Source of the DNA: Hyaloraphidium curvatum | Taxonomy: Eukaryota > Monoblepharomycota > Hyaloraphidiomycetes > Hyaloraphidiales > Hyaloraphidiaceae | Length of the DNA stretch: 64,000 nt | Direction of reading: 5' to 3' | Assembly (NCBI GenBank): GCA_025558095.1 | Contig: JAIVFI010000003.1 | Location: 558,001 to 622,000, forward strand | In this document: piece by piece, positions 1 to 3,280 of the stretch | Layout of the letters: each line of letters starts with the position of its first letter | Numbering within the stretch: position 1 is the stretch's first letter | Notes under the pieces: model-generated | The model's input: the letters and a program-made list of their open reading frames with translations, nothing else | What the model was told of the DNA's origin: nothing | Database searches by the model: none | Position numbers and translations under genes: made by a program

Positions 1-1457
1 GTCAAGCTCGGTATCCGGATGACGCACCTCGACCTGACCGCGCTGCGCGGCAAGCAGCAGGGGAGTCCTGCCGCGGTGGTCGCACGCGTTGAGAAGCTCC
101 TTGTCTTCCACGGCCAGAGTACGCAGCACAGAAACGGATCCCGTCAGCGCAGCGACATGGGCCAGCGTGTATCCCTCCTTGTCCGCCTTCATGAGGTCGG
201 GACGGCGCGTGAGGAGCAACTCCACCACCGGCAGGCGCTGCTGGTCAAGAGCCAGAAGCAGGGCAGTGGCGCTGAAGGAGTCGGTGGCGTCCAGCAGAGC
301 CGGCTGGACCGCAAGCAGGCACCCGCAAACTTCGACGTGTCCGCGGAGGGCCGCAACATGGAGCGCAGTCCGGCGCGTTTCATCGGTGTGCTCAGGCTTC
401 GCTCCCTTCTCGAGGAGGAAGTTGACGATGTGGAGGTGCCCGTTGCTGCACGCCTCGATGAGCGCCGTCCATCCACGACCGTCCGCCCAGTTCACGTGCT
501 CCGACTGCGGGTAGTGGTGGAGCAGCGACTTGACGCAGCTGCAAAGCCGCGTAAGTTGGTGCGCTGCACCATGGGCAATCGAACTCACTCCAGGTGACCG
601 TTGCGAGCCGCGAGCTGAAGAGCCGAAAACTTGGAGCGGTTGGTGGGGATGTACCTCGAGCCCGAGTCCAGGAGCAAGTCAACGACTAGCAAACGGCAGC
701 TTCAGTCTTTGTCCTAACCGAGGGTCGCTTTAAGGGCCCACCAGGGGTGCTCCCGAAGCATGATGCGTGCATGAGCGGAGTGAGTCCATCCTGGTCTTCC
801 ACGTCGACATTTGCTCCACGGTCGAGAAGCAGAGTAACGGCTGAAGCACAGGTCAGAAGATGCAATGGGGACGTCCGCGCGACTCACTCGAGAGCTTTCC
901 ACCGATGGCTGCCCAGATGAGGGCATTCTTCCCCTTCCCGTCTACGGTTTTCAGGTTGGCCTTGTTGTTGAGGAGCAGGCGGATCATGTCGTCGCGTCCT
1001 GGGAGAAACAGTGTCATTGGGTGTTGTTTCCATCCCTCTCCATCCGGCGCCCACCTTCTTGCGCGGCAAACATGAGTGCGGTGTGGTGGAGCTATAGATG
1101 GGTCCGTCAGTCCGACAGCTGGGAGTCCGACCGGGAAATCCGACCCACAGTGTCAATCTCGCAGTCGGCCGACATGCCCTTCTCAATGAGGTGGGCCAGC
1201 GCGTGCAGGTCGGCCCTCTGCGTGGCCGCGCACCATTGCTGCACTTCGGGCGATGCCTCCTCAAAGACGCCAATGGAAGCCGCATCGATCTTGTGGCGCT
1301 TGGCCGGCGGGTCGACTGCCGGGCGGGGTCCTGTCGGGGCCTGCACAACCGGCGACAGTGGGCTAGACGGCGCGCTGTCCTTGCCGCTGCCGGGAGCTCC
1401 GCCGAGCTTGGCGCCCTTGTGCATGCGCAGCGAGCCGAAGCCCAACGCGCTCTTCAT
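1..1457 (-). CDS. Ankyrin-repeat protein, 3' end cut by window edge
   Basis: The chosen ATG (MKSALGFGSLRMHKG) opens a roughly 80-residue polar leader. Ankyrin repeats follow, spread over several exons joined by short introns. Visible repeat cores include HHTALMFAAQEG, GKNALIWAAIGG, DGLTPLMHASCFGS, GWTALIEACSNGHLHIVNFLL and RGRTPLLLAAQRGQVEV. The first intron is 57 nt (1092-1148, GTGGGT...TATAG), and splicing it restores the repeat frame exactly. At least eight repeats are seen and the reading runs off the left edge, so the C-terminus is missing. Ankyrin arrays bind protein partners; no catalytic domain is visible, so the cellular role is unknown. It is divergent from the channel gene at 1718, with 260 bp between the two starts. 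Confidence 0.85.
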
Positions 1458-1717
1458 CGCGAGGACTGTTTGGGGGCTCTGTTTACGTTGGTGGGGAGCG
1501 GCGGCGTCAGGAGCTGCCGCGCGAGCGCGCGGGCAAGAACGCCCGGGACGCCACGTGCCTACACACGATGTCTTCGATCGTCGTGGGTTTGAGTGGCACA
1601 GGTCTCGCGATGGGGCGCAGGAGCAATGGGATTCGAGGTGCGAGTGCTGGGTGGCTGACGTGCGCCAAACGGGGTCCATGCGGTCCAGGACCTAGGCGAG
1701 ATTCCGCGGCAGTCGCA

Positions 1718-3280
1718 ATGCTGTCGCTCCTCAGAAACCCAGGATCCCTCTTCGGCATTGCTTGTGCCCTGTTTCTTCTCTTGGGATCCTCGGTCGTCTC
1801 CGCATCCTCGCGCCGTGTACCGCGAAATGGGAACCTCCGCTCCTACGGCAAAGACGGGGCGGTTCCGGCCTTCGCATCGCCGCGTCGGGTACCGCGAAAC
1901 GGCCAGGAAAGCAACCTCCGTTCACACGGCATCGATGAACCAGTGTCGATGTTCCGTCGGCAGAACGGAACGGCGATTCAATGCCAGCTCGAGCTGTTCA
2001 CGCAACTAATCGGCACCTTCTCCCTCGCCGATGGGACTGCAGTGTGGACGGGCTGGATCTCCATGCTCTGCAACGCCAACGTGACCGTGTGGGATTCGGT
2101 CGAGCTCCTGAACCTCGAAACGGAGTTCGGACCTCTCGTCACCAACAGACAAGCTGGCATAGTAGATCCGCCGGCCGCCCTGGGGCCGGGGTTCACCTTC
2201 TTCAGCACGGCAAAGATCCGTGTGCCGATTCTAGTCGACTCCGACTTGACGTATTACCCGTACGATCGCGTTTGGGTCCCGATCACGATGGAGGCGCTGG
2301 AGGAAACATCGGCGCTGCGCGTGTCGTTCCCCCAAGAGAACGCCATCATTGCCGATACTGACTTTGCGACCGACGACGAGTTCACTCTGTACTCAACGCG
2401 GGCCATCGTCGTCACGGAGACCATCGATTACCAGTTCCGGTATCTGGGAGGCCGCAATGCAACCTACGACCGCATCACCGTCGTCTACTCATTCTATCGG
2501 TCAGACTACGTCAATTGGATACAAGCAATGCTTCCTACGTTCCTGTCTTTCGTGCTGAGCATGGGTGCGCTCTTCCTGAGCGTCGTCGTCGATTTCGAAG
2601 CTCGGATGGGTATTTTGGGCGCAAGCGTCTTCGTCGTCGTGCTCAACATCAACGTGCTGAACGCTTTCTTGGGCTTCCCGAGTGTCATGACCACCGGTGA
2701 CCTGATCAATCTTGTGACAATGTCAATCATCGGGCTGGTCATCGTGGAAACCATCTGGGAAAGGTGGCTTCAGTTGCGCTTCGAAGAGCTGAAGGAGGCC
2801 GAAGAGAAACGCCTCGAGGAACTGGAAGAGGTCGAGAACCGGAAGCTGGACGCGCAAGAACTGGCAATGGCAATCTCGAAGACCATTGCCGAGCTGGACG
2901 ATGACGGAGATCAAGGCGGGCTGCGAAGGAGATCCGCGGACCCTGCGCAGAAAAGCGATGGAGTGGCCGCCGCAGGAGTGATGCTTGAGGTCCCCAAAAC
3001 CGAGGCGCCGCTGTCTGCACCGAGGCAAACGACAGGAACGCCTCTGGTTTCGCCTACGAATCGGACTGCCACGGCCACCCCTGCACGAAAGACGTCCAAG
3101 GGGTGCTGCAACCTCATCCCGAACATGGAGAACGTGCCACTCGATAAGTACGAACAGGCCCTGCTTCACCTCAGTCTGGCCACGTTCGTCTTTTTCATGG
3201 TGGCATATATTGCGATCAACATAGGGCTTTTGGTGGGATACCGACCTTCGCCCTGCTACGAGGACGAGATTTGTCGTTGA
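1718..3280 (+). CDS. Pentameric ligand-gated ion channel subunit, Cys-loop-less (GLIC-like)
   Basis: Single 520-codon exon. Residues 1-29 are a signal peptide (LFGIACALFLLLGSSVVSA), followed by a short tandem repeat (RRVPRNG at 32-38 and 56-62). The extracellular ligand-binding domain spans about 85-262. Its signature loop reads DLTYYPYDRVWVPI, matching the family FPFD region but lacking both disulfide cysteines, as in prokaryotic GLIC/ELIC. Helices: M1 about 267-289 with a conserved proline, M2 about 296-320 (pore), M3 about 327-346, M4 about 483-507. The M3-M4 loop is long (about 136 residues), charged and partly coiled-coil (EELKEAEEKRLEELEE). By family, five subunits form a plasma-membrane channel; the ligand and ion selectivity cannot be read. 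It has no introns, unlike its neighbours. An upstream in-frame ATG exists, but 1718 is the one that directly precedes the signal peptide. Confidence 0.85.
   Translation: MLSLLRNPGSLFGIACALFLLLGSSVVSASSRRVPRNGNLRSYGKDGAVPAFASPRRVPRNGQESNLRSHGIDEPVSMFRRQNGTAIQCQLELFTQLIGTFSLADGTAVWTGWISMLCNANVTVWDSVELLNLETEFGPLVTNRQAGIVDPPAALGPGFTFFSTAKIRVPILVDSDLTYYPYDRVWVPITMEALEETSALRVSFPQENAIIADTDFATDDEFTLYSTRAIVVTETIDYQFRYLGGRNATYDRITVVYSFYRSDYVNWIQAMLPTFLSFVLSMGALFLSVVVDFEARMGILGASVFVVVLNINVLNAFLGFPSVMTTGDLINLVTMSIIGLVIVETIWERWLQLRFEELKEAEEKRLEELEEVENRKLDAQELAMAISKTIAELDDDGDQGGLRRRSADPAQKSDGVAAAGVMLEVPKTEAPLSAPRQTTGTPLVSPTNRTATATPARKTSKGCCNLIPNMENVPLDKYEQALLHLSLATFVFFMVAYIAINIGLLVGYRPSPCYEDEICR
1808..1942 (+). 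repeat. Imperfect internal tandem repeat in channel N-terminus
   Basis: Two diverged copies of about 63-70 bp encode RRVPRNG-(N)LRS-G-D-V just after the signal peptide. At DNA level both contain a TACCGCGAAA core and an AACCTCCG(C/T)TC segment. The repeat lies outside the conserved ligand-binding fold. Confidence 0.75.

Follow-up and report, generated by a model that had tools for sequence, protein, structure and literature searches.

Does a fungus encode a pentameric ligand-gated ion channel (pLGIC) of the prokaryotic type and, if so, where did the gene come from? The question is raised by a 64-kb stretch of genomic DNA, hereafter the window, in which an initial annotation placed a Cys-less ligand-gated channel gene at 1718-3280 (+). 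That annotation described the surrounding genome as fungus-like and such channels as considered absent from fungi, in line with the surveys of Tasneem et al. (PMC549065, 2004) and Jaiteh et al. (PMC4795631, 2016), neither of which reports a fungal pLGIC. A search of the literature, with subscription journals mostly outside it, found no later report of fungal or chytrid pLGICs. Our analyses indicate that the gene very probably encodes a Cys-less pLGIC subunit whose lineage is a eukaryotic offshoot of a bacterial subfamily, in a fungus, a reading based on sequence comparison and structural modeling.

The host genome and its contents

The host assembly comprises 31.9 Mb in 55 contigs and contains 96 matches to Zn2Cys6 clusters and four chitin-synthase loci. 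Its EF1A carries the opisthokont insert GWKKEGKAGEVTGK, is nearest to that of yeast and lacks the two-residue animal insertion. Judged from these features the host is a fungus, and the impression of a fungus-like genome was thus correct. A photosynthetic or algal host is unlikely, as no light-harvesting proteins were found in the genome. Contamination is also unlikely, because the contig is 1.15 Mb long and the neighbors of the channel gene on it are ordinary eukaryotic genes; a gene for a mitochondrial-type DNA polymerase exonuclease is found inside the window. Many host proteins have two Zn2Cys6 clusters per frame (e.g., C35:28125-28361, C26:535805-536101, and C4:54798-55133), an uncommon architecture seen repeatedly throughout the genome.

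Anatomy of the channel gene

The open reading frame runs from the ATG at 1718 to the stop codon at 3278-3280 and encodes 520 amino acids with no internal stop, within a longer open stretch of 637 codons (1367-3280, +). Its GC3 is 0.72, versus 0.69 in the LCM neighbor gene. An ankyrin-repeat-like gene (853-1152, -) is located just upstream on the opposite strand. The coordinates, the YYPYD motif and the four hydrophobic segments given in the initial annotation were all recovered (Table 1).

Table 1. Features of the channel gene in the window, with the evidence for each
Feature	Position	Strand	Basis
Complete pLGIC subunit gene, single exon	1718..3280	+	520 codons plus stop; frame, homology, fold
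Signal peptide / hydrophobic N-terminal helix, residues 1-31	1718..1810	+	Sequence; modeled helix 8-31
Extracellular beta-sandwich ligand domain, short bacterial type, residues 85-261	1970..2500	+	Alignment, profile-profile, AlphaFold2
Cysteine pair C89 + C118, beta1/beta2	1982..2071	+	Paralog alignment, AlphaFold2 model
Pro loop, residues 173-187, V...YPYD...V, Cys-loop cysteines missing	2234..2278	+	Sequence, alignment
M1, residues 263-284, with P273; pre-M1 R261 just ahead	2504..2569	+	Alignment, model
M2 pore helix, residues 293-318	2594..2671	+	Alignment, model
M3 and cytoplasmic extension as one ~70-residue helix, residues 326-396	2693..2905	+	AlphaFold2; also single-sequence model
Disordered cytoplasmic segment, residues 397-474; CC463/464 near its end	2906..3139	+	pLDDT <50 for most of 398-462
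M4, residues 475-506	3140..3235	+	AlphaFold2 model
C513 + C519, post-M4	3254..3274	+	Common to the C23 paralog (and C11); not in C22

In the Pro loop, YYPYD occupies residues 179-183, of which Y180, P181, Y182, and D183 fit the F/YPxD pattern of the superfamily. Cys-loop receptors have two disulfide-forming cysteines that flank this loop with 13 residues between them. At the corresponding positions (-7 and +7 from Y180) the window protein has V173 and V187, so that both cysteines are missing, as had been noted, and by this feature the protein is not a Cys-loop receptor. We compared it with the superfamily-conserved residues listed in Table 1 of PMC4795631. The pre-M1 Arg (R261) and the M1 Pro (P273) are both kept, and the beta9 aromatic position appears to be Phe. 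At the M2-M3 loop position where 88% of the superfamily has Pro and 3% Gly (PMC4795631), the window protein has Gly (G319), with a Pro two residues further on. The M2 residues are E-2', A-1', R0', G2', A6', F9', L13', and N16', of which F9' is likely the hydrophobic gate.

The segment between M3 and M4 is long, as had been claimed, although its modeled length is about 125 rather than the 136 residues given earlier, and the AlphaFold2 model shows helix over its first ~45 residues. A weak match of this segment to EF-hand-like and lanmodulin/S100 proteins was rejected, since DDDGDQGGLRRR breaks the EF-hand pattern. In the ligand domain, a C-x28-C pair (C89 and C118) is kept in four of four paralogs and is not found in the other aligned channels. 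Judged from the modeled strand limits, C89 lies opposite C118 on the beta1-beta2 hairpin, and the pair probably staples beta1 to beta2.

Profile and fold evidence for pLGIC identity

In single-sequence searches, the window protein alone matched nothing in Pfam-A, NCBIfam, or the PDB, and its assignment to the pLGICs therefore needed independent support. We built a family profile from the window protein and its three relatives in the same genome (on contigs C22, C23, and C11), and an independent pLGIC profile from channels of bacteria and animals and from other fungal ones, with this window family left out. The independent profile scored the window protein at 19.4 bits and its two intact paralogs at 28.5 and 40.9 bits, whereas 600 shuffled controls reached at most 5.5 bits and reversed sequences about -2. 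When searched against 794 bacterial genomes from two phyla, the source of the bacterial relatives discussed below, the family profile retrieved the bacterial pLGICs L105 (E 6e-13), L106 (3e-10), L089 (2e-9), and L090 (4e-8). Profile-profile comparison with the bacterial short-ligand-domain group to which these belong gave a probability of 99.3% and E 1.5e-20 over 246 columns; the profile of that group itself matches GLIC (E about 4e-16). Motif scans of genome_contigs and viral_contigs with the family alignment yielded no relative, a result that, with motifs this short, excludes only close ones.

Structure prediction, suggested in the initial annotation as a check, agreed with these results. 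AlphaFold2 run on a 29-row alignment produced a model with 205 residues at pLDDT ≥90, in which a beta-sandwich ligand domain is followed by four transmembrane helices. A fold search of this model against the PDB gave a VIA Z of 21.5 (302 residues, 3.0 A), and 50 of 50 among the matches listed were pLGICs. A model from the single sequence was of low quality (pLDDT 42.5), contained helices only, and was kept out of the fold search. As the 29-row alignment was seeded with pLGICs, the fold constitutes strong but not fully independent evidence. The pLGIC fold was also matched by giant-virus entries of BFVD, namely A0A5J6VL22 (Megaviridae environmental sample, E 5e-13) and A0A7S9SUV3 (Virus NIOZ-UU159, E 1e-9).

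Three pLGIC lineages in the host

Beyond what had been annotated, we found at least 12 further pLGIC loci, which brings the host to at least 13 genes in three lineages: the window family, nine animal-like genes, and one GLIC-like gene. Counting that of the window gene, Pro loops at 13 of 13 loci lack the Cys-loop cysteines. The nine-gene family has its nearest matches in animal glycine and GABA-A receptors (E about 1e-25), to which it is also sister in the tree. Its nine Cys-less loci (in L051, L052, L053, L054, and L055; contigs C6, C1, C37, and C39) match Neur_chan_LBD, several are arranged in head-to-head or tandem pairs, and their N-terminal YDxxTRP motif is also seen in glycine receptors. 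The third type, on contig C4 (L050:1350-2474, -), is GLIC-like (E about 1e-14 in the PDB), has a single exon, and shows no evident signal peptide. In fungal databases, the nine-gene family may already have been picked up by automatic annotation; the window family has no Pfam match and would likely escape it.

Relationship to bacterial channels

The closest relatives found for the window family are bacterial short-ligand-domain pLGICs of Actinomycetota, Pseudomonadota, and Myxococcota (L105, L106, L089, L090, L092, and L087). Like the window family, they have a short extracellular domain, a [YFW][WF]xx[AM]K-like segment ahead of the Pro loop, R(M/V)GxxxGAxF in M2, and TLxD at the opening of M3, and L105 and L106 also have Gly in place of the canonical Pro of the M2-M3 loop. 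They have neither the C89/C118 pair nor the long M3 helix, lack an M3-M4 segment of ~125 residues, and are only about 15% identical to the window family. GLIC (the Gloeobacter proton-gated channel) and ELIC share with the window protein the pLGIC fold and the absence of Cys-loop cysteines, and GLIC also has E-2' A-1' before M2; however, GLIC is a member of the bacterial group with long ligand domains, lacks a large cytoplasmic domain, and does not come out nearest in the tree. Animal Cys-loop receptors (GlyR, GABA-A, and nAChR) share the fold, the Pro loop, the topology, and a cytoplasmic M3-M4 domain, but have the Cys-loop cysteines, form a separate branch, and carry a cytoplasmic helix that precedes M4 rather than continuing M3. 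Cys-less Pro-loop receptors of eukaryotes, which the window protein resembles in being Cys-less and eukaryotic, have been reported from protists and invertebrates, none of them fungal (PMC4795631).

Two fusion proteins were seen among the bacterial pLGICs. One, in an Archangium MAG (L069:1911-4184, +), has SBP_bac_5 fused on its C-terminal side; the other, in a Desulfobacterales MAG (L072:384-2696, +), has an N-terminal Peripla_BP_6. N-terminal PBP-I fusions to pLGICs are already known (PMC549065), while the SBP_bac_5 fusion may be less known.

In the main tree of 38 rows, which included seven of the nine animal-like fungal genes, the window family joined L105 and L106 with support of 100/95, within the bacterial short-ligand-domain group (100/96), whereas the animal-like fungal genes joined the animal receptors (95/91). 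A tree of the Pro loop-to-M3 region with long rows removed agreed (96/93 with L105/L106 and 100/98 with the bacterial subgroup). A single clade of the window family, the nine-gene family, and animals was disfavored, with p-AU of 0.032 on the full alignment and 0.023 on the Pro loop-to-M3 region, for groupings named after the first tree had been seen. The window family thus groups with actinobacterial and proteobacterial pLGICs, apart from the animal-like genes of its own host and from animal receptors. The profiles, the profile-profile comparison, and the tree all uphold the prokaryote-type designation.

Paralogs and intron history

The window family consists of three intact members (the window gene, C22, and C23) and one degenerate copy (C11). 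In the C11 copy (L049; G000:C11:572957-573558, -), exon 1 runs directly into mid-exon 5 with a frameshift, a junction that removes the Pro loop, M1, and M2. The M1 proline is not present in the C22 subunit. All three paralogs bear introns, whereas the window gene is a single exon, which had been taken to fit acquisition from bacteria. This argument does not hold. C22 and C23 have one intron in common, which in both interrupts M2 at an identical codon position and in the same phase (GCA-AG^C / GCC-AG^C). In the tree, the window gene is sister to C23, with C22 outside. The lack of introns in the window copy is therefore probably secondary, which contradicts its use as a sign of recent transfer, and bacterial ancestry is supported by the sequence rather than by the single exon. 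The M2 intron could be explained by one gain followed by loss in the window copy or by two parallel gains.

Intron 2 of C23 (L048, minus strand 2164-2222) is a tandem copy of coding sequence that equals it exactly in length (59 nt) and matches it at 94% over 50 nt; each copy contains AG|GT. It would represent a textbook case of a fresh intron gain, caught recently.

Alternative origins and fates

The placement described above makes the window family a bacterial-type lineage and suggests that transfer from bacteria is likelier than vertical descent from a protist ancestor. Vertical descent would make the family an old eukaryotic Cys-less lineage that was lost in most fungi, with the bacterial grouping produced by ancient duplication or long-branch attraction. 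We regard this as possible but the less probable course. Cys-less pLGICs occur in many of the 22 protist genera that have pLGICs, seven protist sequences fall among prokaryotes, with low support, in the published tree, and gene loss is frequent (PMC4795631). Moreover, branches in the 38-row tree are long, about 4 changes per site between the window family and its bacterial relatives, and the profile search for relatives covered bacterial genomes of two phyla; protist members of this branch could exist. Nevertheless, the trees reject joining the window family to the animal-like fungal genes and animals (p 0.02-0.03), and the best matches come from a specific bacterial subgroup with which motifs in M2, the M2-M3 loop, and the region before the Pro loop are held in common.

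Descent from an animal-type Cys-loop receptor by secondary loss of the cysteines is most improbable. Nematodes and ciliates provide known cases of such loss (PMC4795631), and the best PDB sequence matches of the family profile, themselves weak, are GABA-A subunits (E 0.015); yet the family matches the short bacterial group far better than animal receptors (hhalign scores of 84 and 48, respectively), and the trees strongly separate it from both animal receptors and the host's animal-like genes, placing it outside the animal Cys-loop clade. It is unlikely, if less so, that the protein has kept the fold but is no longer a ligand-gated channel, and is instead an orphan, auxiliary, or non-conducting subunit or else a retrocopy in decay, derived from one of the intron-bearing paralogs. 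The missing introns and the decay of the C11 copy would fit such a fate; the 520 intact codons, at about 44% protein identity to the nearest intact paralog, and the retention of the Pro loop, the pre-M1 Arg, the M1 Pro, and the M2 residues speak against it.

Proposed history and mode of action

Under the favored scenario of bacterial transfer, the gene would have passed from bacteria to an ancestor of the fungal host and then undergone duplication, intron gains, and a probable re-loss of the intron in the window copy. In the course of this history, the beta1-beta2 cysteine pair would have been added and M3 extended as a helix into the cytoplasm. The mature protein is predicted to enter the secretory pathway and, by analogy, is most likely a ligand-gated cation channel at the cell surface. 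Its pentamers could consist of this subunit alone or include the C22 and C23 subunits. A small extracellular ligand would bind at subunit interfaces; the Pro loop and the pre-M1 Arg would couple binding to the pore, which would open at its gate, the F9'/L13' ring. All steps past fold and topology are extrapolated from the superfamily. Cation selectivity is favored by the acidic -2' residue, which is Glu in the window protein, Asp in both intact paralogs, and Glu in GLIC; as L105 and L106 have Ser at this position, it may not be ancestral.

Implications for pLGIC evolution

Taken at its broadest, the analysis points to an unreported fungal pLGIC repertoire of three lineages, one of which came from bacteria independently of animal receptors and was re-engineered in a eukaryote, where it gained a new disulfide between beta1 and beta2 and a long M3 helix reaching into the cytoplasm; eukaryotic pLGICs would then have more than one source. 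We give this full reading about even chances. With at least 13 genes in three lineages, one of which falls within bacterial channels and another of which is sister to receptors of the glycine/GABA type, both the reported absence of pLGICs from fungi and the single origin of eukaryotic pLGICs discussed in PMC549065 and PMC4795631 become directly testable. How Cys-less channels are stabilized in the eukaryotic secretory pathway is a question raised explicitly in PMC4795631; the window family suggests that such a channel may be stabilized there by a cysteine pair placed elsewhere. As an opisthokont without nerves, the host also offers a setting for studying what pLGICs natively do.
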